A stretch of 64,000 nt of DNA from Mycobacterium sp. MS1601 (GTDB taxonomy: Bacteria; Actinomycetota; Actinomycetes; Mycobacteriales; Mycobacteriaceae). Position numbers and translations under genes: made by a program. Numbering within the stretch: the stretch's first letter is position 1; each line of letters starts with the position of its first letter. Of this stretch, positions 28,640 to 45,386 are shown in pieces. The notes beneath the pieces were generated by a model that had not been told where the DNA came from, did no database searches, and saw nothing but the letters and a program-made list of their open reading frames with translations. The stretch is taken from NCBI RefSeq assembly GCF_001984215.1, contig NZ_CP019420.1, positions 62,001 to 126,000 of the forward strand, in the 5' to 3' direction.

Positions 28640-29953
28640 TCAGCTGCTCGCACAGTTGGGTGTCGTCGGTAGGCCGTTGAAGCGGTCAGCCACCCACTGC
28701 ATGGAGCGCTCCCCATCGACGAAGTAGGGCAGCAAGGTGTTGATACCCGTCTTGTTGAGGAACGGCGGTTGCTCATTGGTCCACAACTGCACATCGGCTC
28801 CCTTGCCGCACCAGTCCCGAGCAAGGTCCGCTGAGGCCTGATACGGATTGAAGCTATCGAATCGATTGGCCGAAATATAGCTAGGTCCAGCAGGTTTCAT
28901 CGATCCCAGGTTCTGCGCGGCTAGGAGACTCTTCACCGGATCCGTACCGAACAGGGTTGCGGGGTCGACATTGAAGTACCCCGTGTTGTCCGGAAAATAC
29001 ATATGCCGAAATGCGAAGTCCGCCACCGACTGCACCAAGCAGATCTGACTCGACCACTGCACGAAGTGCTTACCGCGTTCGGTGAGAGTACCCATCAATA
29101 GATCCGCGGTCTCCGGGTAAGCGAACACCACGCCATTGAGCAGATACCCCAGTGCCCCAACCAGCATGCTGCCGTCCATGTATGACGGCATCAGCGAGAG
29201 GTTCGCAACCGGCGTGTTGAGCGCGGTCCCCACGACGTTCAACTCGGGCGCGTAGGCCGGTGCCAACTCAGCCGCCGCGCCGGCCGCTTGCCCGCCGGTC
29301 AGCCAGCCCCAGAAAGCCACTGGCCCTGCCACGTCCAACGATGTGTGCGGCAATTGCTTGGCGGCACGCGCCGCATCGAGCAAGGCCGTGCCTGCCGCTT
29401 GACGGATACCGAACTGCGGACCAGACGGAGTGTGAGTACCCATCCCGACGCCGTCAGCTACGACGATTGCGAAACCGCGCGCCACCATCGTGGCCAGGAA
29501 TGTCTCCTCATAGTTGAACGTCAGATCGAAGCCCTGCGAGAAGTGGATGCCCTGATCCATCAGCCGCGACGGCGCACACTGCTCTCCGATTCCGTACGGC
29601 CCAGGGGCGTAGGCAATCAATGGCCTCGGACCGTTGCCTGGCCACGGGTTGTCGGGCTCGAGGTAAACACCTGTCGCCGCTGCGGAGTTGCCTTTGGCAT
29701 CCGTGGTGCGGTACATGATCCGCGTACCTGTGGCCACCCAGCTTCCGAGCTGTCCGGACGGCTCGTATACCAGCTTCATCGGCTCCGAGCGGAGCAGATC
29801 ACCAGGCTTGCCGGCTGGCAACGGATCCGGCGGTGTGTAGAACGCCAGGTATTTGGTCTCGTCGGCGTGCGCGACTGGGTGGACGATGCCAACGAGAAGT
29901 GCGAGCACACTGAGCACCGCACCGGTGAGTGTGCCGAACGTGGCACGAGACAT
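28640..29953 (-). CDS. Secretory lipase (LIP) family protein lacking the usual nucleophile serine
   Basis: A 437-residue exported protein. The ATG at 29953 has GAGGAAC upstream and opens a signal peptide ending at about VAHA-D (residue 31). The body is a fungal-type secretory lipase (PF03583) alpha/beta hydrolase with WPGNGPRPLIAYAPGPYGIGEQCAPS near residue 90. In active relatives the elbow reads GYSQGG; here it is GWLTGG, with leucine (codon CTG) in the serine position. It may be inactive, or threonine may be used. Last gene of the P450/phenol hydroxylase run. Confidence 0.78.
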   Translation of the reverse strand: MSRATFGTLTGAVLSVLALLVGIVHPVAHADETKYLAFYTPPDPLPAGKPGDLLRSEPMKLVYEPSGQLGSWVATGTRIMYRTTDAKGNSAAATGVYLEPDNPWPGNGPRPLIAYAPGPYGIGEQCAPSRLMDQGIHFSQGFDLTFNYEETFLATMVARGFAIVVADGVGMGTHTPSGPQFGIRQAAGTALLDAARAAKQLPHTSLDVAGPVAFWGWLTGGQAAGAAAELAPAYAPELNVVGTALNTPVANLSLMPSYMDGSMLVGALGYLLNGVVFAYPETADLLMGTLTERGKHFVQWSSQICLVQSVADFAFRHMYFPDNTGYFNVDPATLFGTDPVKSLLAAQNLGSMKPAGPSYISANRFDSFNPYQASADLARDWCGKGADVQLWTNEQPPFLNKTGINTLLPYFVDGERSMQWVADRFNGLPTTPNCASS

Positions 29954-29998
29954 GGTTGTTCCTCGACTTGTTCGGGGTAGTGGGAAGTTCGGCCGCAC

Positions 29999-30304
29999 TC
30001 AGCAGGTCTGCGAGAAGTGCAAGATATCGACACCGCCGGAGGCGAAGTGGACCACGTCGGCCTGCGCTCGCTGGCCTTCCGGTGACGCAAGGGCCGACTG
30101 CAGCGACGTCAGATCGGCGAAATCGGCTTCGAAGACCGCGAAATAGGACGCCTCCCCGGCCAGCGACGTCACATCCAGGGTGTAGCGCACGCACAGAACA
30201 CCGGGGATCGCCCTGGCAAGCGGTAGGTGGTGATCGCGGTAATAACGGCGAAACTCGTCCGGGTCGTCGGGTTGTCGATAGAGAACCTGAAGCGTGTGCG
30301 CCAC
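29999..30304 (-). CDS. EthD-domain protein
   Basis: A 101-residue EthD protein (dimeric ferredoxin-like alpha/beta barrel fold), beginning HTLQVLYRQPDDPDEFRRYY and containing DHHLPLARAIPGV, the family hallmark with the conserved HxxLA. In Rhodococcus the ethRABCD locus uses EthD with a P450 and an AraC/XylS-type regulator for O-dealkylation of ethyl tert-butyl ether; the biochemical role of EthD is unknown. Four bases separate it from pheA1, so it is part of the same operon. Confidence 0.82.
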   Translation of the reverse strand: MAHTLQVLYRQPDDPDEFRRYYRDHHLPLARAIPGVLCVRYTLDVTSLAGEASYFAVFEADFADLTSLQSALASPEGQRAQADVVHFASGGVDILHFSQTC

Positions 30305-30308
30305 GAGT

Positions 30309-31931
30309 TCAACCTCTGCCGAAGTAGGAGACGTCGGCGTTGCCGATGAGGTCGGGCACGGTCCATCCGTCGAGGTCGTACTCGGCCAGGCACGCCTCGG
30401 CCAGCCCGGTCATGCTGCTCACCGCGCCACGGTTCTGGGCGGCGAACAACAGCTCCGCCTTGACGTTCTCATGGTTACCCGAGTAGTTGCGCTCGTACAG
30501 TTCATGGCGACCGCCGAACTCCGAACCGATTGAATCCCACAGTGCCTTCATGATTTTCACCCGATCCACCGCAGTCATGCCGTCGGAGCCCCGTACGTAC
30601 TTGTCGAGATACGGGCGCACCTCGGCGCTCTTGAAATCTGCGGCACTCGACGGTAGGTAAATCAACCCGGAGGCAACGTCTTGTTCGATGATCTCCTTCA
30701 CTCGGGGATAACCCTGGATCATGAACATGCGGTAGGTGAGGCCGTACTCGAGCTTCGGGATCACCGTGTCCCCCACCCACGGCTCAGGGTCGCGTGCCAT
30801 GGATTCGGTGAGTGACCAGAACAGGTTCCGCCAACCGATTACCTCACCGACTCGTGTCTGCACACCGCGGAATCCGCCGGACCCGGTTGCTTCCAACGCC
30901 TTGAGGAGCAGGCCGGCGATGAAGTCGAGCTTCACAGCCAATCGGGTGCAGCCCTGGAACGTGAACCGCGGCAGGAATCCGGACTGCGGGAAGAACGCAT
31001 TGATCTTCTCCACGTCGCCGTACATGAAGATGTTCTCCCACGGTACCAGCACCTTGTCGAAGACGAAGATGGTGTCATTCTCGTCCATCCTGCTCGACAA
31101 CGGATAGTCGAACGGAGTTCCCATCACAGCTGCGTTCTGGGTGTACGACGAGCGGCAGATCAACTTGATACCGGGAGCATCCATCGGCACGGTGCAGATA
31201 ATCGCGAACTGCTTCTTCTTGATCGGAAGGCCGTAGTGCGCAATGAAATTGTAGTTGGTGATGGCCGAACCGGTGGCCACGACTTTGGCTCCGGAAACGA
31301 TCACACCGGCGTCGGTCTCCTTCTCGACCTTCATGTACACGTCGCCGACCTCGTCGGGCGGCAGATGTCGGTCCACCGGCGGGTTGATGATCGCGTGATT
31401 CCAGTACAGCACCTTCTCCTGCGACTCCCGGTACCACCTTTCAGCGTTGTCCTGAAAAGGTGCGTATAGCTCCTTATTCGCGTGCAGCGTGCCCAAGAAA
31501 CTGGCCTTGTAGTCGGGACTACGCCCCATCCACCCATAGGTCATGCGCGCCCACGCGGCAATCGCGTCACGCTCCTTGAGAAGATCCGCCGACGACGTCG
31601 ACGCCTTGAAGAAAGGCATGGTGACGCCACCATTGCCGGTATCGGTCGGGCTGGTCACCGTATCGACCACGTCCCCTTGGTGCATCGAGTCGTACAGTCG
31701 CGCCACCATCCGGATCGGGTTACGGAACGCAGGGTGACTGGTGACATCTGACACTCGCTCACCCTGCAGATAGATCTCACGACCGTCTCGGAGAGACTCG
31801 ATGTACTCGGCACCGGTCATCGGCCTGGTCGCAAACGTCGCGTTCGCCAGTTCCGCCGACTGCGATGCCGGATTGCTGGTCAGGACGGGAGTCGACGTGG
31901 GGTCGGACTCTCGTGATGCGATGGTGGTCAT
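30309..31931 (-). CDS. pheA1: Two-component phenol hydroxylase large subunit (PheA1-like, HpaB family)
   Basis: A 540-residue FADH2-dependent aromatic hydroxylase of the 4-hydroxyphenylacetate 3-monooxygenase group. It contains [19 protein letters not shown] at the N-terminus, the substrate/flavin region [19 protein letters not shown], and [17 protein letters not shown] near the end. From memory it is closest in wording to Rhodococcus phenol hydroxylase PheA1, which converts phenol to catechol with reduced FAD from PheA2. The catechol pathway and AraC regulator nearby favour phenol over 4-hydroxyphenylacetate. Starts with TAATG overlap at the flavin reductase stop. Confidence 0.82.
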
Positions 31932-32512
31932 TAGGTGACTGCTCCTTGGCGGGTCTTGTTGAGGTAGAGCGGCGTGAACTCGGCATCAGCGCCGAACCAT
32001 CCGCAGAATGGGTCGTCGAACGAGCCGCTCCACGGCACGTGCGACTCCGGTATTCCAAGTTCGTGAAATGTGCTTCGGAAGTAGAGAAGCGGACGCTTGT
32101 CGGTGACCTCGGCGGCGACTATCTCACCGATGAAGATCACGTGGTCACCACCGTCGTACTCGGCCCAAGGACGGCAGGAGATCATCGCGACCGACCCGCA
32201 GATCATCGGAGCGGTCGGCCCCTGGCGCCACACCGGCCCCGGATTGCACGGCCGCCCTGCGAAGTTCATCGCAATATCGCCCTGATCGTCGGCCAGGATA
32301 TTCACTGTGAACGGTGCACCACTTAGTAATGCACAGGCTCTCGACGATCGGTGCAACGTGACCTGGCACAGCCTCGGCTCGACCGAGACCGGAGTGAAGG
32401 CCGTAACCGTGGCGCCGTGCGGAGTACCTTCGTCGTTCGCGCAGGTGATCACCGTGACACCACTGGCGAACTGCCCGAAGATGCTCCGGGTCTGTTGGGG
32501 TTCCGAGGTCAC
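31931..32512 (-). CDS. pheA2: Flavin reductase (PheA2/HpaC-like)
   Basis: A 193-residue flavin reductase of the HpaC/DIM6 family: [32 protein letters not shown] split around residue 12-42 is the family N-terminus; [20 protein letters not shown] and the late FRSTFHELG follow. It would supply FADH2 to the downstream hydroxylase. The GTG at 32512 is preferred: it overlaps the P450 stop (GTGA) and the residues upstream are P450 shadow. Tight overlaps on both sides indicate coupled translation P450-pheA2-pheA1. Confidence 0.85.
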
Positions 32513-33822
32513 GGCCTGTCCTGCGCCATTGGGTTCTGCTGCGGATCCCAAGTGACCAGTACATTGTCTGGTCCACGGAACGAGGTGTTGGGCGAATACG
32601 TCCACGTCTGCCCGTCCACCAGCTGCATGTGCGGCAGCCGACGGGTCGTCTCCTCCAGCATGACCCGCATCTCCATGCGCGCCAGCGCCTGCCCGAGGCA
32701 GTGGTGTACGCCCCACCCGAAAGCCAAGTGTTCATCGGCGTTCTCACGGGTGATGTCGAACGAATCGCCGTCGGCGAACACCGTGTCATCATGGTTTGCC
32801 GATCCAGTGAGCACCAGAATCCGCTGCCCCGCAGGAATGTCGAGGCCACCGATGTTGACCGGACGCGTGGTCACCCTGCGCCACGTGGGAACCGAGGAAG
32901 CAAAGCGCAGGATCTCCTCGACCGCGTTGGGAATCAAGGTGGGATCGGCACACAGTTGCTCCCACTGGTCGCGGTGCTCGAGAAGCACCTTGAACCCGCT
33001 TGCCGCTGCGTTGGTGGTGGTCTCATGTGAGGCGTACAGGTGGCTCTGCATGATGGAGGCCAGATAGGTCTTGTCCCACACCTCGTCGTTGCCTGCGGCC
33101 TGCCAGGCTTTGATGGCGTTGCTCATGTAGTCGTCGCCAGGATTCTCGATCAGCCGGTCGACATGCTCACGCGCATACTGCAGGTAGGCCGCAAACTCTT
33201 CGGCCAGCGCGACCTGTTGTTCGTCGGACGGGCGTCCCCAGATCCACAGCGCGAATCGGGAAGCGTAGCCGCGAACCCGGGCAACTTCGGCTTCGGGGAC
33301 GCCCATCAGAACGAACGCCGTCAGCGCGGGCACCTCGAAGGTCATATCGGTGACCATGTCTGCACTGCCGCTCTTGATCATAGTGTCCAGACACTGGTTG
33401 ACGAATCGTCTTGTCAGCGGCTCGATTTCCGCAACTCGTGCTTCGCTCACGCCTTTGCGGAGTACGCGTCGGCGCTTGGTGTGCAACGGGGCGTCCTCGT
33501 CGACCAGCATGGTCGACGGGACGTAATCCACAGCGGCCAATTTGTCCATCGCCGCCGGGCAGGGCGGCTTGATGAGTTCGCCTGCCGCAGTGGCCGAGTA
33601 GGACTCGGTGTCGCGGAAGATCGCCAACACATCTTCATGCCGGCTGACCACCCAGTAGTCGATCTCTGGACTGTAGAAGACCGGCTCTTCTCGGCGCGCC
33701 CGAGCGAATACCGAGTAGGGGTCCTGGAGGTACTCCTCGTCGAACGGGTTGAACGCGGCTGCGAAGCCCGAGACTGGGCAACCGCTGGGAAGACTCCCCG
33801 TGTTGGCCATTGTTTCGGTCAT
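32509..33822 (-). CDS. Cytochrome P450, CYP116-like
   Basis: A 437-residue class P450 with heme cysteine C375 in FGWGVHHCLGQALARMEM, K-helix EEILRF and I-helix ASHETTTNAA in place of the common AGxDTT. The sequence follows the CYP116 group, whose best-known members (P450 RhF type, CYP116B) are natural fusions to a phthalate-oxygenase-type reductase; shared wording includes RLPHMQLVDGQTWTYSPNTS and the WDPQQNP end. Here the reductase is a separate gene 48 bases upstream. CYP116B enzymes perform O-dealkylation among other reactions, so an aromatic methyl ether is a plausible substrate. Confidence 0.85.
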   Translation of the reverse strand: MTETMANTGSLPSGCPVSGFAAAFNPFDEEYLQDPYSVFARARREEPVFYSPEIDYWVVSRHEDVLAIFRDTESYSATAAGELIKPPCPAAMDKLAAVDYVPSTMLVDEDAPLHTKRRRVLRKGVSEARVAEIEPLTRRFVNQCLDTMIKSGSADMVTDMTFEVPALTAFVLMGVPEAEVARVRGYASRFALWIWGRPSDEQQVALAEEFAAYLQYAREHVDRLIENPGDDYMSNAIKAWQAAGNDEVWDKTYLASIMQSHLYASHETTTNAAASGFKVLLEHRDQWEQLCADPTLIPNAVEEILRFASSVPTWRRVTTRPVNIGGLDIPAGQRILVLTGSANHDDTVFADGDSFDITRENADEHLAFGWGVHHCLGQALARMEMRVMLEETTRRLPHMQLVDGQTWTYSPNTSFRGPDNVLVTWDPQQNPMAQDRP

Positions 33823-33870
33823 CTTCTCCTCATTTCTCGTTGGGGGCTGGATGTTTGGTGATGTGGCCGT

Positions 33871-34821
33871 TCAGATATCGAGCACAAGTCGCCGCGAGGT
33901 CGCCCGCGAGCAACAGATCATCATGACTTCGTTTGCAGCCTTTTCGTCGTCGTCCAGGATCTGATCGCGGTGGTCGACATCGCCATCGAGAACGGCGGTT
34001 TCGCACGACCCGCAGATACCCTCGGCGCAGCTGCTGGTCACCTTGATGCCGGCCGCCGCGAGGGCGTCGAGAATGGTCTGCTCAGCGCCCACTTCGATGA
34101 CTTTGTTGGATCTCGCGAGCTCCACATCGAAGGATTGATCCTTGGAGGTATCCACATTCAGTGCTGCCGCGGCGAATCGCTCGATATGGAGCTGGTCGGT
34201 CAATCCGATCTCTGCGCATCGACTACTCAACGCGTCCAGCAGGCGCGCCGGCCCGCAGGAGTAGATCAGACAGCCGGCTGACAGGTCAGGTGTCAGCACC
34301 TCCTCCAGCCGCAGCCGTGGACCCTCATCAGAGGCGTGGATCATGGTGTTCGGTAACGCATCCACCAAGTCGACAAATGCCATGGCAGACCGGCGAGAAC
34401 CTGCATAGCGAACGGCGAAAGGCACGCCGGACCGCTGTGCCGCGGCGATCATCGGGATCAGCGGGGTGATGCCGATGCCACCCGCCACGAACAGGTACTC
34501 CTGCGCCTCGCGGAAGTGAAAGTGGTTCCGCGGAGCGGAAACGGTTAGCGTTGCACCTTTTTTCACCTGTGCGTGGAGGAACTCCGACCCGCCCCTGCTG
34601 TTTGGGTCACGAAGGACCGCAATCTCGTAGCGGCTGCGGTCCTGCGGATCCCCGCACAACGAATACTGACGGACGAGGTCATTGGGCAGATGGACGTCGA
34701 TGTGCGCCCCGGCATTCCAGGGCGGCAGCGTCCTGCCGCGGGCGTCGATCATCACAAGAACGATCACGCCTTGACATTCAGTGCGGACCTCATCGACGGT
34801 CAGACTTAGCGTGTTATCCAT
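33871..34821 (-). CDS. Phthalate-dioxygenase-reductase-type electron transfer protein
   Basis: A 316-residue flavin/iron-sulphur reductase of the PDR/VanB class: an N-terminal flavin (FMN) barrel (QYSLCGDP, residues about 52-59), NADH domain (VAGGIGITPLIPMIAAAQ), and a C-terminal plant-type [2Fe-2S] domain with SSCAEGICGSCE and a distal cysteine in MMICCSRA. It would pass NADH electrons to the P450 that follows. The ATG at 34821 starts just before the conserved LSLTVDEVR; an in-frame GTG at 34941 or ATG at 34938 would add about 40 unrelated residues. Neither has a good ribosome site, so the start is uncertain. Confidence 0.85.
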   Translation of the reverse strand: MDNTLSLTVDEVRTECQGVIVLVMIDARGRTLPPWNAGAHIDVHLPNDLVRQYSLCGDPQDRSRYEIAVLRDPNSRGGSEFLHAQVKKGATLTVSAPRNHFHFREAQEYLFVAGGIGITPLIPMIAAAQRSGVPFAVRYAGSRRSAMAFVDLVDALPNTMIHASDEGPRLRLEEVLTPDLSAGCLIYSCGPARLLDALSSRCAEIGLTDQLHIERFAAAALNVDTSKDQSFDVELARSNKVIEVGAEQTILDALAAAGIKVTSSCAEGICGSCETAVLDGDVDHRDQILDDDEKAANEVMMICCSRATSRRLVLDI

Positions 34822-35024
34822 ATCCGTTGTTGTGCAATCCAATTCGTTCCTTCTTCCCAGGCCTTGGTCTGCCGCATGGACGGCGATGGCCGCACATCGC
34901 ATGGCGCCACCGCCGACTTCCCCTGGTGAGCTTTCCATCACAACGACTCTAGAAAGTGGTGCAGACCATATCTATCCGTCGGACGCCAGAAAACATCCGT
35001 AGCGCGCCATTGTCGGCGGGCGTA

Positions 35025-36023
35025 CTACAGGCTGGTGGCGCGTAAGGTTTCCGAGGGCGTTTCGCCGTACTCACGCCGGTAGTCCGCGGCGAATCTACCC
35101 AAGTGGGTGAATCCCCACGCCGTCGCCAGCTGGGCCACCGACGCGGCCTCAGGAGACGCCGCAGCAAGCGCGACGCGAACTCTGTTCAGGCGCACTTTGC
35201 GCACGAATTCCATTGGCGTGCATTGGTGTTGCTCGCGAAATCCGCGCTGCAGCGAACGAACGCTGACGCCGACCGCAGCGGCGATGTCCGCCGGCGTCAA
35301 GGAATCCGCCGTATGCCCGTTGATGTACTCCACAGCTTTGCTGATCACACCTGAGGTGATCGCCGGCTCAGGCGCAACCAGTGTCGCGCTGTAGCGATTC
35401 TCCGCGAGCATCAGAAGGCCAACGATCATGCTGTACGAGAGGGGCTTGATCATCAGGTGGTTGGCCAGTATCGAGTTTTCGACCTGCGCGCGGTAGACCT
35501 CGCGCACCAGAGACCACCAAGCCTTGCCGTCGGTGCCGGTGAGATCAAGGGGCCCGCCCAGATCGATCGGATCACTGACCGGACCGTCGATGAGGCCGGA
35601 CAACACCGACCGCAGGGCGGTTCCGTCGATCTTCATTGCGAAGATGTTCAGCTGGCTGCCCTGCGGACAGAAAATCTTCGCATCCGATCCCGACTCGTAC
35701 ACCACGGCCGCATCGGTTCCCACCCGGCTGGTGGTGCTGCCAGATACCGAGACCAGTTCCCCACTTAGCGGAATGTTGATGTGGTAGCCGTCAATCGTCG
35801 GGCAGTAGAGGTCACTATTGCTGTTGTAGTGCAGTATCCCTGAAACGATAGGGCCCGATGTGACGGCGACGAGCTCGGCGTGAAATCCCCGCTCGCATCC
35901 GACGCGGGTGAGCTCGTGCGGATGAAAGATCTGACCCACCTGTTGGGTGGCCTCATTGACGTCCAGGCTGGACATCCGGATCGACGAGGCCGTCGCAGCG
36001 GACCGCAGTGACATGTCGGTCAT
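35025..36023 (-). CDS. AraC-family transcriptional regulator (PheR-like)
   Basis: A 332-residue regulator. The N-terminal two thirds is an AraC_binding_2-type effector domain; the C-terminal double helix-turn-helix runs from about 232, with TPADIAAAVGVSVRSLQRGF and ATAWGFTHLGRFAADYRREY followed by GETPSETLR. ATG at 36023 has GAGAG upstream; the longer frame adds arginine-rich noise. It sits upstream of, and is co-oriented with, the reductase-P450-pheA2-pheA1 genes. Phenol hydroxylase operons of Rhodococcus are controlled by an AraC-type PheR, so this is the likely activator. Confidence 0.82.
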   Translation of the reverse strand: MTDMSLRSAATASSIRMSSLDVNEATQQVGQIFHPHELTRVGCERGFHAELVAVTSGPIVSGILHYNSNSDLYCPTIDGYHINIPLSGELVSVSGSTTSRVGTDAAVVYESGSDAKIFCPQGSQLNIFAMKIDGTALRSVLSGLIDGPVSDPIDLGGPLDLTGTDGKAWWSLVREVYRAQVENSILANHLMIKPLSYSMIVGLLMLAENRYSATLVAPEPAITSGVISKAVEYINGHTADSLTPADIAAAVGVSVRSLQRGFREQHQCTPMEFVRKVRLNRVRVALAAASPEAASVAQLATAWGFTHLGRFAADYRREYGETPSETLRATSL

Positions 36024-37532: not shown

Positions 37533-37677
37533 CAAGACCTCCAAGTTAAACATCCTGCACGCGAAGGGAACTGACCGACCGTCGAGCAACAACTCACCGA
37601 TCGAATGGGTGCTCAGTGCCCGGCGGCACGGCAACGTTGGACGCGATTCGGTAGTTGTCGACCAGCAAAGGAGAATG

Positions 37678-38259
37678 ATGAACAGAACGGTCGAGCGCGG
37701 GCAGGTCAGCTTCAGCGATGCGCGCCGAACTGTGCTCGACGAGAACGAACGCCTGCTCGAGTCCCTCGACGACGAGGGTTGGGAACACTTCGGCGAGGTG
37801 CTGAGCCAGGGCCGGGCGGTCTTTGTGATCGGCTCTGGCCGTAGCGGTTTAGCGGCCCAGATGGCCGCGATGAGATTGATGCACCTCGGTTTGCGAGTGC
37901 ACGTGGCAGGCGAGGTCACTGCACCGGCGATCGGCGCCGGTGATGTCTTGCTCGCGGTGTCCGGGTCGGGCACCACAGCAGCTGTCGTCCAGGCAGCCGA
38001 AGTCGCCAGAGGTGTCGGCGCCATTGTCGTCGCCGTCACCACAGCCGCGCAATCGCCACTCGCACAGCGCTGCGACCACGCGCTCGTGCTCGCAGCCGCC
38101 GACAAGCAGGACCACAGCACATCTGTCACCCGGCAATACGCCGGCAGCCTGTTCGAGCAGAGCCTTCTGCTTGCACTCGACGCACAGTTCCACATGCTCT
38201 GGCGCACAACATCACTGACACCCGAGCAGTTGTGGACCAGGCACGCCAACATCGGGTAG
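37678..38259 (+). CDS. hxlB: 6-phospho-3-hexuloisomerase (PHI)
   Basis: A 193-residue SIS-domain protein of the PHI family: FVIGSGRSGLAAQMAAMRLMHLG (about 42-64) and LLAVSGSGTTAAVVQAAEVA bind the sugar phosphate, and QYAGSLFEQSLLLALD is the family C-terminal helix. It isomerises 3-hexulose 6-phosphate to fructose 6-phosphate in the ribulose monophosphate pathway. AAGGAG ends four bases before the ATG at 37678; an ATG three bases earlier is also possible. The hxlA gene follows by 44 bases. In Mycobacterium gastri this pair is known as rmpB-rmpA. Confidence 0.9.
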   Translation: MNRTVERGQVSFSDARRTVLDENERLLESLDDEGWEHFGEVLSQGRAVFVIGSGRSGLAAQMAAMRLMHLGLRVHVAGEVTAPAIGAGDVLLAVSGSGTTAAVVQAAEVARGVGAIVVAVTTAAQSPLAQRCDHALVLAAADKQDHSTSVTRQYAGSLFEQSLLLALDAQFHMLWRTTSLTPEQLWTRHANIG

Positions 38260-38303
38260 CCAACCGGCATGCCCGCAATACCACTCACCTCAGGAGTACA
38301 TTC

Positions 38304-38933
38304 ATGACCCAACTCCAAGTCGCCATCGACTTGCTCAGCACGGCCGAAGCTCTCGCACTGACCCGGCAGGTATCGCAGTATGTCGACATCATCGAGCTGG
38401 GTACACCGCTGATCAAAAGCGAAGGTATCGCCGTCATCAGCGCGATCAAGGCAGCGCACCCGGACAAGATCGTGTTCGCTGACATGAAGACGGCCGACGC
38501 GGGCCTGCTGGAAGCGGATCTCGCTTTCAAGGCCGGTGCCGACATCGTGACCGTTCTCGGCAGCGCGGCCGATGCCACGATCGCAGGTGCGGTTGAAGCA
38601 GCCAACACGCACGGCAAGCGTGTCGTCGCAGATCTGATCGGTGTCGCCAATCGTGTTGAGCGGGCGCGCGAAGTCTCCAAGCTTGGTGTCGCGTTCGTGG
38701 AGATCCATGCCGGTCTGGACGAGCAGGCTCAACCCGGGTACACGATCGAGACGTTGCTCGCCGACGGACAGCTCGCTGGTGTGCCATTTTCGGTTGCCGG
38801 CGGCGTCAAGGCCAATACCATTGAGGAAGTGCGCAATGCGGGAGCAACCGTCGCTGTGGCCGGCGCAGCGATCTACGGCGCCGACGACCCCGCGGCGGCA
38901 GCCAGGTCGCTGAAAGCGGCCCTGACAGCCTGA
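38304..38933 (+). CDS. hxlA: 3-hexulose-6-phosphate synthase (HPS)
   Basis: A 209-residue OMP-decarboxylase-fold enzyme. It condenses formaldehyde with ribulose 5-phosphate. The sequence opens MTQLQVAIDLLSTAEALALT, with the catalytic region IVFADMKTADAGLLEADLAF (Asp-x-Lys in the DMKT) and VEIHAGLDEQAQPG, then the phosphate-binding PFSVAGGVKANTI. AGGAG lies eight bases before the ATG. The wording is very close to the Mycobacterium gastri enzyme as I recall it. With hxlB it fixes and detoxifies formaldehyde. Confidence 0.93.
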   Translation: MTQLQVAIDLLSTAEALALTRQVSQYVDIIELGTPLIKSEGIAVISAIKAAHPDKIVFADMKTADAGLLEADLAFKAGADIVTVLGSAADATIAGAVEAANTHGKRVVADLIGVANRVERAREVSKLGVAFVEIHAGLDEQAQPGYTIETLLADGQLAGVPFSVAGGVKANTIEEVRNAGATVAVAGAAIYGADDPAAAARSLKAALTA

Positions 38934-38943
38934 ACCACGCCGT

Positions 38944-38981
38944 GATGTGGCCCTGGATCCTTGCGGGTCCAGGGCCACATC
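38944..38981. terminator. Bidirectional hairpin between hxlA and zwf
   Basis: GATGTGGCCCTGGA (38944-38957) and TCCAGGGCCACATC (38968-38981) are perfect 14-bp complements with a ten-base loop, eleven bases after the hxlA stop and 18 before the end of the convergent zwf. No T tract, but the stem is very stable. Confidence 0.7.
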
Positions 38982-38998
38982 GCCGTTGCCGGCGCGAT

Positions 38999-40510
38999 TC
39001 ACAAGGAACGCCACATTCGTCCGTCTCGTGCCAGCATCCGGGCTGCCGACCGAGGTCCGTCCGAACCCGCCGGATAGTCCTCGGGGCGGCCACCTTTGGA
39101 CCAGTACTCGATGACCGGATCGACGATCTCCCACGATCTTTCCACTTCGTCTCCGCTCGGGAAAAGCGTCGCATCTCCGGTCAGGGCATCACGGATCAGC
39201 CGCTCATAGGCGCTCGGTGCGGCGTCAAAGGACGCACGCAGATCCAGCTCGAGATTCATCGGCTGCACCTGCAACCCGGGTCCGTGCTGCTTGGCCCCAA
39301 TCTGAAGCTCAATGCTGATCTCGGGTTGCAGACGCAAGACCAACACGTTGGCGACCCCGTCCCGCGCCGCGTACTCGGCCGGCCGAAAAGTCACGACGAT
39401 CTCGACACCCTGGCGGCTCAGCCGTTTCCCGGTGCGGAGATAGAAGGGCACACCCGACCACCTCGGTGAGTCGACCAACACGGTCAGTGCCGCGTAGGTT
39501 TCGGTTGCCGAATCCGCGGCGAACGACGCCTCCTCGGTGAGGGCACCCACCGGAACCCCTTCCGACGTCCCGGCGACATACTGGCCTCGTGCTGTGGTCC
39601 GGTCGAACGGCAGCGCGACGGAGCTGGCAGCCAACACAGCACATTTGGCGGCCGCCACCGCGGCGGCGGCGTAGGACGAGGGTTCCTCCATAGCGACCAG
39701 CGCGAGCAGTTGGAGCAGGTGGTTCTGGATGACGTCACGGGCAGCTCCGACCCCGTCGTAGTACGACGCACGGCCGGTGACACCGATGGTCTCCGCCATG
39801 GTGATCTGCACGTGATCGATATGCAGGTTGTTCCACGATGGTTCGAACAGCCGGTTGGCGAACCGTAATGCCAAGATGTTTTGTACCGCCTCCTTACCCA
39901 GGTAGTGGTCAGTACGGAAGATCGACGCCGAGGCGAACGCCGATTCCAGGGCTGTCGCGATGACCCGGGCGCTGGCGAGGTCGTGGCCGAGCGGCTTCTC
40001 TACCATCACCCGCCGCCAGCCGGTCCGTGATCTGGAGAGGCCGGCGGCGTCGAGCCGAGTGGACACCTCTGCGAAGGCAGACGGCGGCAACGACAGGTGG
40101 TACAGGCAGTTGCTCGGCTTGCGTCGACGATGCTGCAGCGAATCGAGCAACACGGTGAGCCGCCGGTATGCTTCTGGATCCTCATAGGAACCACCCAGAG
40201 GATGGATCCTCTCCCGCAGCTCGGCCCAGACATCCGGGTTGTAATCCCGCCCAGCGTAACTAGCGATACTCGCCTGCAATCTCTCGTGCAGTCCGTCGGG
40301 ACGCCGAGTGAATCCCACCAGGTCGAAATCCGGACCTAACTCGCCCCTGCTGGCCAGCTCGTACACGGCCGGCATCAGCTTCTTGCGCGCCAAGTCCCCG
40401 GTGATACCGAAGATCACCATCGTCGCGGATTCTATTTCCGCACCGGGGTTTCGCGCGTCGACCGAGATCGAGGCGGGCGCCTCACCCTGGCGCAGCTGCG
40501 TGGTGGTCAT
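38999..40510 (-). CDS. zwf: Glucose-6-phosphate 1-dehydrogenase
   Basis: A 503-residue G6PDH. Coenzyme fingerprint VIFGITGDLARKKLMPAVY (about 31-49), VEKPLGHD, and the active-site segment FRTDHYLGKEAVQNILALRF (usually RIDHYLGKE; Ile is replaced by Thr). It oxidises glucose 6-phosphate to 6-phosphogluconolactone. GGAG lies nine bases before the ATG at 40510; the 29 extra residues upstream are rejected. M. tuberculosis carries other zwf copies elsewhere; this one is isolated from opcA/tal/tkt and faces the hxl genes, which suggests a dedicated role in cycling RuMP carbon. Confidence 0.92.
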   Translation of the reverse strand: MTTTQLRQGEAPASISVDARNPGAEIESATMVIFGITGDLARKKLMPAVYELASRGELGPDFDLVGFTRRPDGLHERLQASIASYAGRDYNPDVWAELRERIHPLGGSYEDPEAYRRLTVLLDSLQHRRRKPSNCLYHLSLPPSAFAEVSTRLDAAGLSRSRTGWRRVMVEKPLGHDLASARVIATALESAFASASIFRTDHYLGKEAVQNILALRFANRLFEPSWNNLHIDHVQITMAETIGVTGRASYYDGVGAARDVIQNHLLQLLALVAMEEPSSYAAAAVAAAKCAVLAASSVALPFDRTTARGQYVAGTSEGVPVGALTEEASFAADSATETYAALTVLVDSPRWSGVPFYLRTGKRLSRQGVEIVVTFRPAEYAARDGVANVLVLRLQPEISIELQIGAKQHGPGLQVQPMNLELDLRASFDAAPSAYERLIRDALTGDATLFPSGDEVERSWEIVDPVIEYWSKGGRPEDYPAGSDGPRSAARMLARDGRMWRSL

Positions 40511-40623
40511 CTGATCGCTCCTTTGGCTAGCGGCAGCCGGCATAGCCAGCGTTCGTTGTAATACTGCGGGACAACGAAATCGGATACACCGAGCCAACCG
40601 GGTAGCACGTACTCGCCCTACGA

Positions 40624-40914
40624 TCAGGTGGGCATCAACGCAATGTTGGAGGGGTGGACCGCTAGCGGAGTGACGACTATCCTCATGTACGGGAAGAGCG
40701 GCAATCCTGAAAGGATCTGGTGCAATTCGTCATTCGATTCGACGTCGAAAATCGAGAAGTTCGCGTACTCCCCCACGATGCGCCAGATATGCGGCCATTT
40801 GCCCGCCCGCTGCAGTTCTTGCGAATAGGCCTTTTCCGTGGCCAATACCTCGTCTTTGACAGTCGGATCGAGTCCCTGCGGAATTCGGACGTCCATACGA
40901 ACATGAAAAAGCAT
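40624..40914 (-). CDS. catC: Muconolactone delta-isomerase
   Basis: A 96-residue protein beginning MLFHVRMDVRIPQGL, with EKAYSQELQRAGKWPHIWRIVGEYAN split around residues 27-52 and FDVESNDELHQILSGLPLFP near 55-74, matching the family in length (about 92-96) and order. It converts (4S)-muconolactone to 3-oxoadipate enol-lactone. It follows catA by seven bases. The larger open frame upstream is a shadow of catA. Confidence 0.92.
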   Translation of the reverse strand: MLFHVRMDVRIPQGLDPTVKDEVLATEKAYSQELQRAGKWPHIWRIVGEYANFSIFDVESNDELHQILSGLPLFPYMRIVVTPLAVHPSNIALMPT

Positions 40915-40921
40915 GCGCGCG

Positions 40922-41785
40922 TCAGATTTCCGGGTCAAGGACAAAGTCGTAGACGACCACCTGCGACCCATCAGGTTTCGTGACAGGCTCCAGCATGAGC
41001 TCGGGCTTGACTGCGCTGGCGATGTCGTCGCCGTTGTGCGGGTCGCCCGGAAAGTAGAGCTGGGCAGTGAGTTGCTCATGTCCGGGCGCAGACACCTTGA
41101 CGTGCAGATGGGCGGGCCGCCAGGCATGCCAACCGGCCGCCGCGATGAGTTTCCCGCACGACCCATCGGTAGGAATCTGGTAGGGCGCGGGGCGGATCGT
41201 GGTGATCTCGAAAACGCCGTCAGCGTCGACGGAAAAGGTCCCACGCAGATTCCACTCGGGAATGTTCGGAGCGAACTGCGAATAGAAGCCCTCGGCATCG
41301 GCGTGCCACAGTTCGATCTTGCCGGCCAGCGGCGTGCCGTCAGTGGCTTTGATGACGCCGCGCAAGACCAGCGGTGTTCCTGACTCGCCGGCGCGCATCG
41401 GTAGGATACCGCTGGCGCCGAGCTCCGGTGCGCCGGGTACATAGTAGGGCCCCTCGATGGTGCCCTTACTTCCCTTACGGTGTTGGGTGGCAACGTCTTC
41501 GACGACATGCTCTATCCACACATCGAGAAAGAGCGGCCACTCGCCGTCCTGCCCGACTGAGATAAGCCACGCCTTGAGGGCGTTGTATTCGTCGTAGGTG
41601 ACGTTGTGACGCCGCACCGTGGCACGCACCGCTTCCAGCACCTCGGTGGCCAGTTCATGCACCCGCGCTGGAGGCGTGTCGGCGACCGCCGCGAAGGGTG
41701 ATTTGTCGGTGTTGAAGCGTTCGGTCGCGGAGGCACCTGACGCAGCTGCACTCGCGCTCACCGCGGGGTTTTCGATGGTGGTCAT
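40922..41785 (-). CDS. catA: Catechol 1,2-dioxygenase
   Basis: A 287-residue intradiol dioxygenase. The Fe(III) ligands are visible: Y168 (GFYSQF), Y202 (APYQIPTDG), H226 and H228 (RPAHLHVKV). The N-terminal helical dimerisation domain (about 40-110) is present. It opens catechol to cis,cis-muconate. It lies between catB (61 bases) and catC (7 bases) on one strand. Both phenol hydroxylase and the proposed O-demethylase would feed it. Confidence 0.95.
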   Translation of the reverse strand: MTTIENPAVSASAAASGASATERFNTDKSPFAAVADTPPARVHELATEVLEAVRATVRRHNVTYDEYNALKAWLISVGQDGEWPLFLDVWIEHVVEDVATQHRKGSKGTIEGPYYVPGAPELGASGILPMRAGESGTPLVLRGVIKATDGTPLAGKIELWHADAEGFYSQFAPNIPEWNLRGTFSVDADGVFEITTIRPAPYQIPTDGSCGKLIAAAGWHAWRPAHLHVKVSAPGHEQLTAQLYFPGDPHNGDDIASAVKPELMLEPVTKPDGSQVVVYDFVLDPEI

Positions 41786-41846
41786 GTCGTAGTTTCTCTC
41801 TTCCTATCTTGATCAAATCCCCGGACTGTGTCCGGAGGGCTGCGAC

Positions 41847-42953
41847 TTACTGATGGTCGGTGCGGTAATGGGCCAACTTGTCCTCGTCGATCTCGATCCC
41901 GAGGCCGCAACCCGCGGGCACATGCAATCTGCCGTCCGCGATGCTGAGCGGTTCGGTCAACAGGTCATCGGACATGTCGAGGAAGTTCGACAGTTCGCCG
42001 GCGCGCCGCGAGGTCAACGCGAAAGCCGCGCCGAACGTCACGGTGCATACGGTGCCGAGCTGACCGTCGATCTGGTTGCCCATCACGACTTCCAGACCGA
42101 GCCCCTCAGCGAGGTGGTGCACGCGGCAGGAATCCGTGAATCCGGTGCGCGCCGTTTTGATGCTGAGTGCGGTTGCTGAGCCGGCGAGGATCTCGCGCGT
42201 CACATCTGCTGCGGTGCTGGCTGATTCGTCGGCAACAAACGGAGTGTCGATATGCTGCACCAACCATCGGCGGCCCAGCACATCGTCGGCCGGGCACAAT
42301 TCTTCGGCGAACAATAGATCGAGGTCAGCCATCTCGCGCATGGCACGAAGCGATTCCGAGGCCGTCCAACCGCGATTGCCGTCGACGTAGAGTTCGATGG
42401 CATCGCCGAAGGCTTCGCGCAGTGCGCGGACCACCGCGGTGTCCAGGGTCACCGGACGCCGGCCGACCTTTACTTTGAACGTGCTGATGCCATAGATCGA
42501 TCGCAGGCGCTGGGCCTCGTCGACCATCGCAGCGGGCTCGTCGAATCCCAACATGTGGCACACCCGCATTCCGTCGGCGTATCCGCCCAGGAGCCGGGTC
42601 ACCGGCAGTTGCAGCGATCGCCCTAGCGCATCCCAGATCGCCATGTCCACAGCCGCTTTGGCGGTGGGGTTGCCGACGGTACGGGCAAGACGGGTCCGAA
42701 CCAGTTCACGCTCGGTGAGTTGGAGTCCGAGAATCTGAGGAGCGAAGATATCACGGACGACCGCGATGATCCCAGCCTGCGTCTCGCCATAGGTGAACGG
42801 CCTCGGCGGAGCCTCGGCCACACCCACGATGCCTTCGTCGGTTCGGACACGAACCAGGACATGCTCAGCAGCATGTATTTCACCGGAGGCGAACCTCAGT
42901 GGCTTACGATACCGAATCCTGTAGGGAATCGCCTCTATCGCAGAGATTTTCAT
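41847..42953 (-). CDS. catB: Muconate cycloisomerase
   Basis: A 368-residue enolase-superfamily enzyme. Catalytic K160-x-K162 in FKVKVG, metal ligands D191 (YVDGN), E217 or E218 (FAEELC) and D242 (VADES), and K266 (SIKTARTG). It cyclises cis,cis-muconate to muconolactone. Its ATG overlaps the catR stop by four bases (ATGA), so the regulator and enzyme are translated from one message, unlike the usual divergent LysR arrangement. Confidence 0.93.
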   Translation of the reverse strand: MKISAIEAIPYRIRYRKPLRFASGEIHAAEHVLVRVRTDEGIVGVAEAPPRPFTYGETQAGIIAVVRDIFAPQILGLQLTERELVRTRLARTVGNPTAKAAVDMAIWDALGRSLQLPVTRLLGGYADGMRVCHMLGFDEPAAMVDEAQRLRSIYGISTFKVKVGRRPVTLDTAVVRALREAFGDAIELYVDGNRGWTASESLRAMREMADLDLLFAEELCPADDVLGRRWLVQHIDTPFVADESASTAADVTREILAGSATALSIKTARTGFTDSCRVHHLAEGLGLEVVMGNQIDGQLGTVCTVTFGAAFALTSRRAGELSNFLDMSDDLLTEPLSIADGRLHVPAGCGLGIEIDEDKLAHYRTDHQ

Positions 42954-43867
42954 CGTCGACCGCCGTGAATATCGTCGGAGGAAGCGGCGACGGCGCTAGT
43001 TCGCAAGATGGTCTCGACCACGGCGGGAATCACGGGGTTATCTGCCGCGGCGCACCAGGCCAACGCCAGCTCGATCGACCTGCCGTCGAGCAAGTCACAA
43101 AAGTGCACACCCGGCAGCGGCAACGCCCGGGCCGAGGCCGGCACCACACCTACTCCCAAACCGGCAGCCACCAACGCAAGGAGCACGGCGGTGCCGTCTG
43201 CGGCATGCTCTCGATTCGGTACGAAACCTGCTTCGCGACAACTGCGCAGCACCGCGTCGTTGACGGCGGAATCTCGGCTCGAATAGGCGACGAACGACTC
43301 GGACCGCGCGTCAGCAAGCTCGACGACGATCTGACCGGCGAGCCGATGGTCTGCCGGGACAGCGAGCACCAGTGACTCGACCTCGATGGTGCGGAATTCG
43401 ATACCCTCGCCAACCAGCGGCGGACGCAACACCGCCACATCCAGGTTCCCGGTTCGCAGCGCGTCGCACTGCGCGGGTGTGAGCATGTCCGCACAGATCG
43501 TTAACGCAACGTCGGGCAGGTCGCTGCGGAGCGCGCGGGCAATGCGCGGCAACTGGGAGAACACCGCGGTTCCGGTGAGGCCGAGTCGGACCATTCCGGA
43601 TCGTCCCACGGCGATCCGTCGGACCCCCCGTTGCGCCTCGTTAACACTGCCGAGAATGCGAATCACCTCGGCCCTTAGGTACTCACCGGCGGCCGTCAGC
43701 GCGACATGCCTGGTGGTTCGGTTGAACAACGTCACATCCAATTCAGATTCCAACTGGCGGATCGCATACGACAGTGCGGGCTGGGCGATGTGCAGCTGCT
43801 CAGCGGCCCGACCGAAGTGACAGGTGTCAGCGACGGTAGCGAAGTAGCGAAGGTGACGTAGTTCCAT
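42950..43867 (-). CDS. catR: LysR-type regulator of the catechol genes
   Basis: A 305-residue LysR regulator with N-terminal winged helix MELRHLRYFATVADTCHFG and AAEQLHIAQPALSYAIRQLE, then the effector domain (LALTICADM, VPADHRLAG). The CatR/BenM type senses cis,cis-muconate. ATG 43867 starts at the conserved MELRHLRYF. It heads the catRBAC operon, so it is autoregulated together with its targets. An 8-bp inverted repeat lies about 78 bases upstream. Confidence 0.87.
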   Translation of the reverse strand: MELRHLRYFATVADTCHFGRAAEQLHIAQPALSYAIRQLESELDVTLFNRTTRHVALTAAGEYLRAEVIRILGSVNEAQRGVRRIAVGRSGMVRLGLTGTAVFSQLPRIARALRSDLPDVALTICADMLTPAQCDALRTGNLDVAVLRPPLVGEGIEFRTIEVESLVLAVPADHRLAGQIVVELADARSESFVAYSSRDSAVNDAVLRSCREAGFVPNREHAADGTAVLLALVAAGLGVGVVPASARALPLPGVHFCDLLDGRSIELALAWCAAADNPVIPAVVETILRTSAVAASSDDIHGGRR

Positions 43868-43944
43868 TTTTCCCGCCTTTGTGACTGAAACTACAATCCA
43901 CGCTATAAGCGACATACATAAATGACAAAGACTTAGATGCGGGT

Positions 43945-43969
43945 GATTGATCGATGTATTTGATCAATC
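43945..43969. promoter_or_regulatory. Inverted repeat upstream of catR, candidate operator
   Basis: GATTGATC (43945-43952) and GATCAATC (43962-43969) are perfect complements with nine bases between. It stands upstream of catR in unusually AT-rich sequence, where the catRBAC promoter is expected. LysR proteins bind interrupted palindromes of similar size. It could be a terminator of the dead gene on its other side, but there is no T run. Confidence 0.45.
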
Positions 43970-44203
43970 GGCTCGAGGCGCAGTGCCTCAGCAGGTGCGG
44001 CGGGCACCGCCTGGCGAATTCCTTGATGTCCCGACACAGCGGGCTATGACGCGGCTGACTCCGCGTGCCTCTATTGGGCAGCAGAGCCCGCTGCCGTCGA
44101 CACCGCGGTTGTTGCTGACGATCGTCAGATCGTCCGGTCCGTGCTCGAGCACCGTCTCGATCAGCAACCCCAGGATGCCGACGTCCTCGTCGAGGGTCAG
44201 CAC
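43970..44203 (-). pseudogene. Remnant of 3-oxoadipate CoA-transferase subunit A (PcaI/CatI-like)
   Basis: In frame from a GTG at 44203 one reads LIETVLEHGPDDLTIVSNN followed by RGVDGSGL and a VSRVIARCVG segment, clearly the CoA-transferase alpha subunit core (GPDDLTVVSNN, then RRVIASYVG). The expected next piece, IKEFARR (usually ENKEFARR), appears only in another frame, and the N-terminal glycine-rich region is shortened. The frame overlaps the catD stop by bases (GTGCTGA), so catD and this gene were once an operon. The thiolase and subunit B are missing. Confidence 0.75.
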
Positions 44204-44946
44204 GCCAGGTGTTCGATGAGCGCAGCCGTGATCACCGCGGGTTGTTCGACGTTCGCGAGGTGAGCGGCATGATCGACGACCAGCAGCCGCGAGCCCGGTA
44301 TGCCTGCGGCGACCTGTTCGAGAACGGCCGGTGGGGTGGCTGGATCTTCGTCACCCGCGATGACCAACGCAGGTGCGGTGATGTCCGCGAGCTGCTCGCG
44401 CAGATCGAGTCGCGCGATCACCTCGCAGCAGCTTGCGTAGCCTTCTGCAGGTGTGCCCGCGCACATCGCAAGCCATGGCCCGCGGTCGCCGGTGTATCCG
44501 CGAGTGAACCAGCGATCGATGACGGCCGCCGCCACCGCTCCCGAACCGGCCGTACGCACCGCGTCGGCGCGGTCGATCCACCCGCTCGCCGGCGGCAGAT
44601 GAGCGCCTGTGCACAACAACGCAATCCGGCCTACTCGATCAGGGTTGCGGGCGGCCACTCGCATCGTGGTCATTCCACCGAGCGAGAGCCCGACCAAGTG
44701 CGCACGCTGCAGGCCGAGCCGGTCGAGCAGCGCGATCAGATCATCGGCCAGTTCGTCGATGACGTATGGGCCCGGCGGCACCGTAGAGTCCCCGTGCCCG
44801 CGCGTGTCGTATCTGACGACGGTGAAATGCTGTTCCAAATCAGCGATCTGGGCGTCCCACATGCGGTGAGTCGACCCCAGCGAGTTTGACAGCACCACGG
44901 CGGGTCCAGATCCAGAGACCACGGCATGGACGTCGACAGCGTTCAT
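44197..44946 (-). CDS. catD: 3-oxoadipate enol-lactonase
   Basis: A 249-residue alpha/beta hydrolase, the CatD/PcaD family: N-terminal LSNSLGSTHRMWDAQIADLE, RYDTRGHGDS and nucleophile S88 in GLSLGGMTTMR; the late acid and histidine lie in VIAGDEDPATPP and DHAAHLANVEQP. It hydrolyses the enol-lactone from CatC to 3-oxoadipate. Separated from catR by a dead CoA-transferase gene. A LysR box precedes it. Confidence 0.9.
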   Translation of the reverse strand: MNAVDVHAVVSGSGPAVVLSNSLGSTHRMWDAQIADLEQHFTVVRYDTRGHGDSTVPPGPYVIDELADDLIALLDRLGLQRAHLVGLSLGGMTTMRVAARNPDRVGRIALLCTGAHLPPASGWIDRADAVRTAGSGAVAAAVIDRWFTRGYTGDRGPWLAMCAGTPAEGYASCCEVIARLDLREQLADITAPALVIAGDEDPATPPAVLEQVAAGIPGSRLLVVDHAAHLANVEQPAVITAALIEHLAC

Positions 44947-44985: not shown

Positions 44986-45022
44986 TTAAATGTTGGCTAT
45001 TGAGAGTCCTGGATTCTTAATC

Positions 45023-45178: not shown

Positions 45179-45182
45179 GCCA

Positions 45183-45365: not shown

Positions 45366-45386
45366 CGGTGCCGCCTCGGGCCGGGG

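Follow-up and report, generated by a model that had tools for sequence, protein, structure and literature searches.

Gene content and genomic setting

We analysed a stretch of 64,000 nucleotides from the genome of Mycobacterium sp. MS1601 (positions 62001-126000 of the main contig, NZ_CP019420.1; genome size 6.83 Mb)—hereafter the window—which holds a putative catabolic island where a stand-alone CYP116-like cytochrome P450 and its reductase sit beside a phenol hydroxylase, the ribulose monophosphate (RuMP) pathway genes hxlA and hxlB and a set of catechol genes (Table 1). Read from right to left, the minus strand carries catD, catR, catB, catA, catC and zwf. To the left of zwf come hxlB-hxlA (plus strand, convergent with zwf), luxR (divergent from hxlB) and araC, followed by one closely spaced string encoding the reductase, the P450, PheA2, PheA1, EthD and a secretory lipase. 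An original prediction, made from the sequence alone, had named these genes, other than lip and luxR, at this place and was borne out: hxlA, hxlB, ethD, zwf, catA, catC and catD pass curated cut-offs, and catB, catR, pheA1, pheA2, araC, the P450 and the reductase fall below such cut-offs and are clear by family. It had missed the LuxR-type regulator between araC and hxlB.

The island is flanked on the left by a DUF5997 gene and on the right by nrdE and nrdI. The gap between DUF5997 and nrdI measures 20.0 kb in the window and was short in all five relatives that carry both genes (on one contig: G002, 2.2 kb; G004, 3.2 kb; G009, 2.8 kb; G011, 2.4 kb; G012, 4.9 kb), in a survey of 21 genomes where DUF5997 was found in six and nrdI in 13, the window genome counted. 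The simplest reading is that 28.6-46.4 kb represents an insertion of ~17.8 kb between DUF5997 and nrdE, a size that follows from the smallest relative gap, which fits nrdE alone (judged by gap length only); this adds 1.4 kb to the limits originally predicted. Genome G012 has a short gap at this site, and a similar gene set sits elsewhere in its genome. At the right end of the insert (45000-46400), two open reading frames (ORFs), 45522-46091 on the minus strand and 45814-47103 on the plus strand, matched nothing in Pfam or NCBIfam. As a sign of transfer, GC content by itself was uninformative. We rejected chance packing of genes as the origin of the neighbourhood, on the strength of the insertion boundaries and of repeated linkage elsewhere.

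The P450 and phenol hydroxylase genes are probably co-operonic, given a 4-nt overlap between P450 and pheA2 and a 1-nt overlap between pheA2 and pheA1; ethD begins 4 nt past pheA1, and lip, the last gene of the P450 operon, has homologues that are 62% identical in the G012 locus and 65% identical in locus L025. PheA1 scores under the 4-hydroxyphenylacetate (4-HPA) hydroxylase cut-off of 885, so it was not filed as a 4-HPA hydroxylase, and it qualifies as a group D oxygenase. Its best PDB match is 4oo2, ‘chlorophenol-4-monooxygenase’ (762 bits), and it is 84% identical to a protein of plasmid pR1CP1 of Rhodococcus opacus 1CP, the plasmid on which phenol hydroxylase 1 of that strain has been placed. 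On family knowledge, PheA1/PheA2 is predicted to be a phenol hydroxylase.

Signatures are intact in the P450 (haem motif FGWGVHHCLG, I-helix ASHETT) and in the reductase (2Fe-2S motif CAEGICGSC), and the best solved relatives of the two are the two halves of one 786-residue protein, PDB 6kbh, which we take to be a fused CYP116. The next-best structures are 6gii, 6ldl, 6laa and 6ro8 (the last named P450 RhF) for the P450, and 6laa and then phthalate dioxygenase reductase (PDR) 2pia for the reductase; 6kbh, 6gii, 6ldl and 6laa are presumably all CYP116B enzymes. Closest similarity to CYP116 haem domains places the P450 in the CYP116 family, and it has relatives at 75-83% identity in Rhodococcus. 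A fused CYP116B was rejected, because P450 and reductase occupy separate ORFs (32509-33822 and 33871-34941) with 48 nt between them; a GcoB-like reductase was also rejected, because the 2Fe-2S domain lies at residues 275-348 of 356, at the C-terminus, and the domain order of GcoB differs.

The catechol branch of the 3-oxoadipate pathway is complete, with catA, catC and catD over cut-offs and catB assigned by family; gene order catR-B-A-C is the same in L025. We assign hxlAB to RuMP formaldehyde fixation because 3-hexulose-6-phosphate synthase (HPS) and 6-phospho-3-hexuloisomerase (PHI) pass curated cut-offs and the HPS catalytic motif is present; DxKxxD is an HPS signature. The best PDB match of hxlA is 3ajx (274 bits), which is annotated only as 3-hexulose-6-phosphate synthase and which, we assume, originates from M. 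gastri. The genome holds five zwf genes above the family cut-off, the island copy counted, and two genes for 6-phosphogluconate dehydrogenase over the cut-off elsewhere.

Table 1: Features of the island and its left flank, in window coordinates.
Feature	Positions	Strand	Evidence and remarks
DUF5997 gene	28211-28597		Left flank of block
lip, secretory lipase/esterase	28640-29953	-	PF03583, Pfam 150.9 bits; start 29953 or 29998
ethD, EthD family protein	29999-30304	-	TIGR02118, 73.7 bits (cut-off 30.5)
pheA1, oxygenase of two-component (group D) phenol hydroxylase	30309-31931	-	HpaB-2 profile, 676 bits
pheA2, flavin reductase	31931-32512	-	Flavin_Reduct, 106.6 bits; GTG start
P450, CYP116-like, stand-alone; proposed aryl-ether O-demethylase	32509-33822	-	phmmer 424 bits, haem half of 6kbh
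PDR-type reductase (flavin/NAD domains, C-terminal 2Fe-2S)	33871-34821	-	Likely start 34821
araC-type regulator	35025-36023	-	HTH_18, AraC_binding_2; AndR-like; likely start 36023
luxR, C-terminal LuxR helix-turn-helix (HTH)	36231-37532	-	GerE, 64.4 bits; invariant Cys54 in N-terminal part
luxR-hxlB divergent intergenic region	37533-37674		Site of Rhodococcus palindrome, degenerate here
hxlB, 6-phospho-3-hexuloisomerase (PHI)	37675-38259	+	TIGR03127, 212.3 bits (cut-off 160)
hxlA, 3-hexulose-6-phosphate synthase (HPS)	38304-38933	+	TIGR03128, 246.7 bits (cut-off 200); DMKTAD motif
zwf, glucose-6-phosphate dehydrogenase	38999-40543	-	TIGR00871, 521 bits (cut-off 400.6); start uncertain
catC, muconolactone isomerase	40624-40911	-	TIGR03221, 145 bits (cut-off 131); start uncertain
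catA, actinobacterial catechol 1,2-dioxygenase	40922-41785	-	TIGR02438, 467 bits (cut-off 404)
catB, muconate cycloisomerase	41847-42953	-	TIGR02534, 190.8 bits (below cut-off 335)
catR, LysR-type regulator	42950-43915	-	LysR profiles including BenM/CatM, below cut-offs
catD, 3-oxoadipate enol-lactonase	44197-44946	-	TIGR02427, 272 bits (cut-off 256)

Co-occurrence and linkage of the P450 with hexulose-phosphate synthase

HPS was found in 8/28 Rhodococcus genomes, in at least 4/298 genomes of the order (a lower bound, as nine candidates per genome were scored) and in just 4/78 genomes of the genus—which in GTDB unites Mycobacterium sp. MS1601 with Mycolicibacterium austroafricanum DSM 44191—a count on which we rejected hxlAB as an ordinary housekeeping pair of mycobacteria. 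Relatives of the P450 at ≥50% identity occur in ten genomes, and eight of these have HPS. The ten comprise the window’s own genome, G012, R. wratislaviensis NCTC13229, R. jostii NBRC 16295, R. jostii RHA1, M. moriokaense GAS496, G114 and three metagenome-assembled genomes (MAGs), namely SZAS-8, PMG_259 and Pseudonocardia 53_S67, in the last of which only pieces of HPS, at the ends of contigs, were seen. Within Rhodococcus, HPS occurs in 5/5 genomes with a P450 at ≥55% identity versus 3/23 others (Fisher p = 5.7e-4), and within the genus sample in 2/2 genomes with a P450 at ≥50% identity versus 2/76 others (p = 0.002); the thresholds and tests were picked after the first linked loci had been seen, and relatedness is ignored.

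The two are also physically linked, at distances from P450 to hxlA of 4.5 kb in the window, 5.8 kb in G012, 0.6 kb in R. wratislaviensis, 7.6 kb on plasmid pRHL3 of R. jostii RHA1 and 24 kb on pR1CP1. The arrangement varies: in R. wratislaviensis an AraC-reductase-P450-EthD block lies between hxlA and zwf. Among 78 P450 loci, each taken with flanks of at most 10 kb, HPS lay near the P450 only in L024, and the more distant P450s in that set had no HPS nearby. Two further close P450s, outside the ten genomes, were found later on plasmids of 1CP, where the plasmid has hxlA, and of Rhodococcus sp. JS3073.

A tree of 52 P450s placed that of the window within a clade of ten (support 99/97). HPS lay within 10 kb in 4/12 tree rows versus 0/40 (Fisher test, ancestry ignored). 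Across ten labelled rows the label ‘RuMP-linked’ requires at least four changes, from which it would follow that the linkage was gained or lost repeatedly and is not one frozen arrangement; this test set five RuMP-linked against five phenol-hydroxylase-linked rows, with 42 unlabelled, and shuffled labels do equally well. Recurrence of the P450-hxlAB linkage in five loci with different geometries supports a candidate formaldehyde-releasing demethylase coupled to RuMP detoxification.

Ring modules and cassette variants in other loci

The P450/PDR pair and hxlAB are common to the linked loci; the modules for ring cleavage vary. The window combines phenol hydroxylase with the catechol pathway. In G012, one gene matches the Pfam domain of hydroquinone dioxygenase PnpD and no NCBIfam family, and it is accompanied by genes for an aldehyde dehydrogenase, an iron alcohol dehydrogenase, an intradiol dioxygenase and a second, CYP199-like P450. 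Plasmid pRHL3 carries a group D monooxygenase, an intradiol dioxygenase and a maleylacetate reductase (hydroxyquinol type), and pR1CP1 chlorocatechol-type genes, a maleylacetate reductase and PheA1A2. These two sets (pRHL3, 306-330 kb; pR1CP1, 766-798 kb) share the P450/PDR/AraC/EthD module, hxlAB, LuxR and zwf with the window; unlike it, they add gnd, pgi and hemQ and have hydroxyquinol- or chlorocatechol-type ring cleavage. Their records are annotated gene by gene, with no joint function given. On pRHL3 the P450 is WP_011600592 and the PDR-type reductase WP_011600591; RHA1 has a further hxlA copy on its chromosome. Both gnd and pgi join the cassette in VOC-14 and R. koreensis as well, and in all four it encodes a complete oxidative cycle. 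In 1CP (L140, 26471-27166) and RHA1 (L141, 22220-22915), hemQ separates the P450 module from the RuMP genes and perhaps supplies haem for the P450.

Other close P450s are found with aromatic genes. Locus L025 unites catRBAC, AraC, reductase, P450, EthD, lipase and pheA2A1 without hxl and, on this gene content, is an independent tie between the P450 and putative phenol/catechol catabolism. L030 and L130 hold the P450 with a catechol-dioxygenase-like gene, EthD and pheA2A1, and on RHA1 plasmid pRHL1 the P450 is followed by PheA1 ~9 kb on. In M. moriokaense GAS496 (L028, 152-4744), a genome with no HPS match, a P450 63% identical to that of the window is preceded by a ribokinase-like gene, by purU, which passes its cut-off, and by a gene weakly resembling methylenetetrahydrofolate reductase (69 bits, cut-off 294). 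The last two are possibly another one-carbon sink, which, with the contig ending at that point, is no more than a hint.

The cassette also occurs ~7 kb from a different P450/PDR pair on a plasmid of R. qingshengii TG-1 (L144), where the P450 is 37% identical to the CYP199-like protein of G012, and ~12 kb from a Rieske/PDR pair on pLRE138 of R. erythropolis R138 (L145), with a formate-dehydrogenase-like gene nearby. R. koreensis DSM 44498 (G086, L112-L114) has three hxlA genes, one of them on a contig of 9.06 Mb and the other two on far shorter ones (72-73 kb), and in L114 zwf matches in several pieces. L015 and L016 (from G041 and G062) carry hxlAB and LuxR with no CYP116 neighbour within the fetched stretch, and a short HPS-like match some kb off, perhaps a ribulose-phosphate epimerase.

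Regulators

An araC gene stands beside the P450 also in L024-L027, L029 and L030, and from its position AraC likely regulates the P450/phenol operon; by the same token of position, CatR would control the cat genes and LuxR the hxlBA pair. The luxR gene adjoins hxlBA in most loci (G012, L111, L112, L115, L118 and L121-L126, as well as 1CP, RHA1, VOC-14, TG-1 and R138), lies ~7 kb off in L113 and L114, beyond zwf in G041 and downstream of hxlA in G062, and was not listed as adjoining hxlBA in NBC_00297. An alignment of 11 LuxR homologues showed Cys54 to be invariant within a conserved CTGRPRK-like segment and the C-terminus to be a LuxR HTH; the middle part has a weak likeness to histidine-kinase ATPases (CheA matches, E 0.005-0.01). 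LuxR is a possible formaldehyde sensor.

In ten Rhodococcus loci (L024, L112, L121-L124, L140 and L143-L145) the luxR-hxlB gap contains an exact CTRGCC-N4-GGCYAG palindrome once, with no further exact copy in the rest of each fetched locus, against an expectation of ~0.02 per 38 kb of shuffled sequence; in L124 there are paired changes in both arms. The palindrome is imperfect or absent in L111, L113, L114, L125, L126 and G012, and the sole match in L013 falls within a coding region.

Proposed pathway and competing explanations

We consider it probable that the island serves to degrade simple methoxyarenes, namely aryl methyl ethers of the anisole type, with RuMP disposal of the formaldehyde released. 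The P450, drawing electrons from the separate PDR-type reductase, would hydroxylate the O-methyl group to give a hemiacetal that breaks down to a phenol and formaldehyde. PheA1/PheA2 would then turn this phenol into catechol, and CatA, CatB, CatC and CatD would take catechol to 3-oxoadipate, both steps as expected of their families. HPS would join formaldehyde to ribulose 5-phosphate and PHI convert the product to fructose 6-phosphate, reactions known for these families and put here to a presumed purpose. With 6-phosphogluconate dehydrogenase from elsewhere in the genome and an assumed phosphoglucose isomerase, the island glucose-6-phosphate dehydrogenase (G6PDH) could complete a dissimilatory RuMP cycle, in which formaldehyde is oxidised to CO2 and the monooxygenases regain NAD(P)H. 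We infer the substrate, the release of formaldehyde, the purpose of hxlAB and the roles of the regulators; O-demethylation is suggested because the P450 stands in one string with phenol hydroxylase, so that its product is likely a phenol, and because its recurring partner removes formaldehyde, an aryl methyl ether being the simplest substrate to account for both.

Several observations weigh against this proposal, besides the late choice of identity thresholds noted above. No feature of the sequence proves O-demethylation, and characterised CYP116 enzymes include a ring hydroxylase, the CYP116B OhpA (PMC8449657), and an N-dealkylase, the CYP116A ThcB (PMC12915292). HPS was not found in two of the ten close-P450 genomes, SZAS-8 (a MAG) and M. 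moriokaense GAS496. Of the 12 places where hxlA was found in the 28 Rhodococcus genomes, only two (R. wratislaviensis and pRHL3) have a close P450 within 10 kb; one further place, on a 3.6 kb contig, is not judgeable. No hxlA was seen near the close P450s of pRHL1, of the JS3073 plasmid and of G114, or on the same plasmid; for JS3073 the search covered the plasmid only, and this plasmid is absent from the seven Rhodococcus records with hxlA. On the VOC-14 plasmid the cassette has no obvious demethylase. In the island itself gnd was not found, and zwf may serve general NADPH supply (compare G6PDH of 1CP on phenol). The genome encodes a mycothiol-dependent formaldehyde dehydrogenase (695 bits), so hxlAB would not be the sole formaldehyde defence. 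The window lacks the exact palindrome, its luxR-hxlB version being degenerate, with 3/6 pairs.

The original prediction that hxl serves formaldehyde from the P450 thus stands in part: it is favoured by five loci of different geometry in which this P450 clade is linked to hxlAB, and the known CYP116 activities and the two genomes without HPS speak against it. Scattering of the neighbours in relatives, which it had named as grounds for doubt, is seen in part, as the two of 12 Rhodococcus places show, and is partly countered by P450 and hxlA sharing genomes far above expectation.

These same facts bear on the possibility that the P450 hydroxylates arenes or phenols, in line with the ring hydroxylase OhpA, and that hxlAB-zwf is an unrelated formaldehyde-defence cassette that landed in the same island. 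Ten of the 12 Rhodococcus hxlA places are apart from the P450 (counting the one not judgeable), and L025, L030 and L130 combine P450 and phenol hydroxylase with no hxl nearby. We nevertheless judge such a coincidence unlikely: four linkages of ≤8 kb among the eight genomes with both genes have a rough chance of 6e-9 for four or more (assuming single copies, and ignoring shared ancestry and the clustering of catabolic genes), and the geometries differ, with four label changes on the tree.

Formaldehyde could instead come from another substrate and still be detoxified by RuMP—through demethylenation of a methylenedioxyarene, N-demethylation of an N-methylaniline or ipso-hydroxylation of a hydroxymethyl phenol to a quinol. 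ThcB sets a precedent for N-dealkylation, the hydroquinone-type ring cleavage of G012 could be fed by ipso-hydroxylation, and the M. moriokaense P450 sits beside one-carbon genes of another kind. Yet a string with phenol hydroxylase asks for a monophenol, which anisole-type ethers yield most simply, and no aniline dioxygenase was seen among the scanned island ORFs; a substrate of this sort seems improbable to us.

A third explanation has zwf and hxlAB serving mainly NAD(P)H supply or one-carbon assimilation, as in methylotrophic mycobacteria, with formaldehyde from elsewhere. The zwf gene adjoins the cat genes, and 1CP on phenol induces consecutive entries for CatABC, G6PDH and a CatA3 homologue, chromosomal entries that run on to PheA1(2) and a GcoA-like O-demethylase (Table 3 of PMC13101518, a text from which the words ‘hexulose’ and ‘formaldehyde’ are absent); moreover, G041 and G062 have hxlAB without a CYP116 neighbour in the fetched stretch. 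Against this, no gene for methanol or methylamine oxidation was seen among the scanned island ORFs and the presence of HPS tracks the close P450, and we regard the explanation as very unlikely. Methoxyarene O-demethylation coupled to RuMP disposal is the reading we retain.

Comparison with known systems

Two elements of the proposal are already known, namely two-component P450 O-demethylases and formaldehyde fixation on methoxyaromatics. GcoAB (CYP255A; Amycolatopsis, Rhodococcus) is described as a guaiacol/anisole O-demethylase that yields about one formaldehyde per NADH (PMC6021390, PMC6411806), the domains of GcoB running 2Fe-2S, FAD, NADH, with the iron-sulphur centre N-terminal (PMC6021390). 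The window pair resembles GcoAB, as described there, in joining a P450 to a three-domain iron-sulphur flavoprotein reductase, and differs in that its P450 is CYP116-like and its reductase carries 2Fe-2S at the C-terminus. P450RhF and its homologues are credited with O-dealkylation among other reactions (PMC8449657). Fused CYP116B P450s are the closest solved relatives of the window P450 and reductase, which by contrast are separate proteins. For CYP116B P450s (P450RhF, OhpA) and for ThcB, the cited passages mention no RuMP neighbour, unlike the window.

In Burkholderia cepacia TM1, Hps and Phi rise on vanillic acid (Mitsui et al. 2003, cited in PMC8879981). The island would resemble TM1, as summarised in that citing text, in using RuMP formaldehyde fixation as detoxification in a non-methylotroph growing on methoxyaromatics. 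B. cepacia is a proteobacterium, unlike the host of the window, and the demethylase of TM1 is presumably a Rieske enzyme. The rmp operon of Mycobacterium gastri MB19, a facultative methylotroph according to a title cited in PMC8879981, encodes HPS and PHI; it offers a mycobacterial HPS like that of the window, where the genes are instead linked to aromatic catabolism. R. jostii RHA1 is reported to excrete formaldehyde on vanillate (PMC8963497).

The original prediction had held that no described locus combines these genes. This needs qualifying, as comparable sets are deposited on pRHL3 and pR1CP1. Among the matches listed for open-licence PubMed Central, no publication appeared to discuss the combination, and no title or abstract brought hexulose-phosphate synthase together with the demethylation of aromatics in either Rhodococcus or mycobacteria.

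Implications

A broader picture, which as a whole we hold tentatively and at slightly less than an even chance, is that of a mobile actinobacterial cassette—LuxR, hxlB-hxlA, zwf and often gnd/pgi—that settles repeatedly near oxidative demethylases (the CYP116-like P450/PDR pair of the window, the other P450/PDR pair of TG-1 and the Rieske/PDR pair of R138) and is combined with exchangeable ring modules, each copy being specific for a different methoxyarene. In this picture LuxR would represent a new kind of formaldehyde sensor, with CTRGCC-N4-GGCYAG as its operator, and the separate CYP116-like P450 and reductase would define a novel class of two-component aryl O-demethylases.

Formaldehyde from O-demethylation is a burden in the bioconversion of lignin and methoxyarenes. 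If our proposal is true, the island would offer a natural, transferable set that couples a demethylase, formaldehyde removal and NAD(P)H recovery, and would be directly useful in that setting. It would also give one branch of CYP116-like P450s a native role and suggest a new formaldehyde-responsive regulator.

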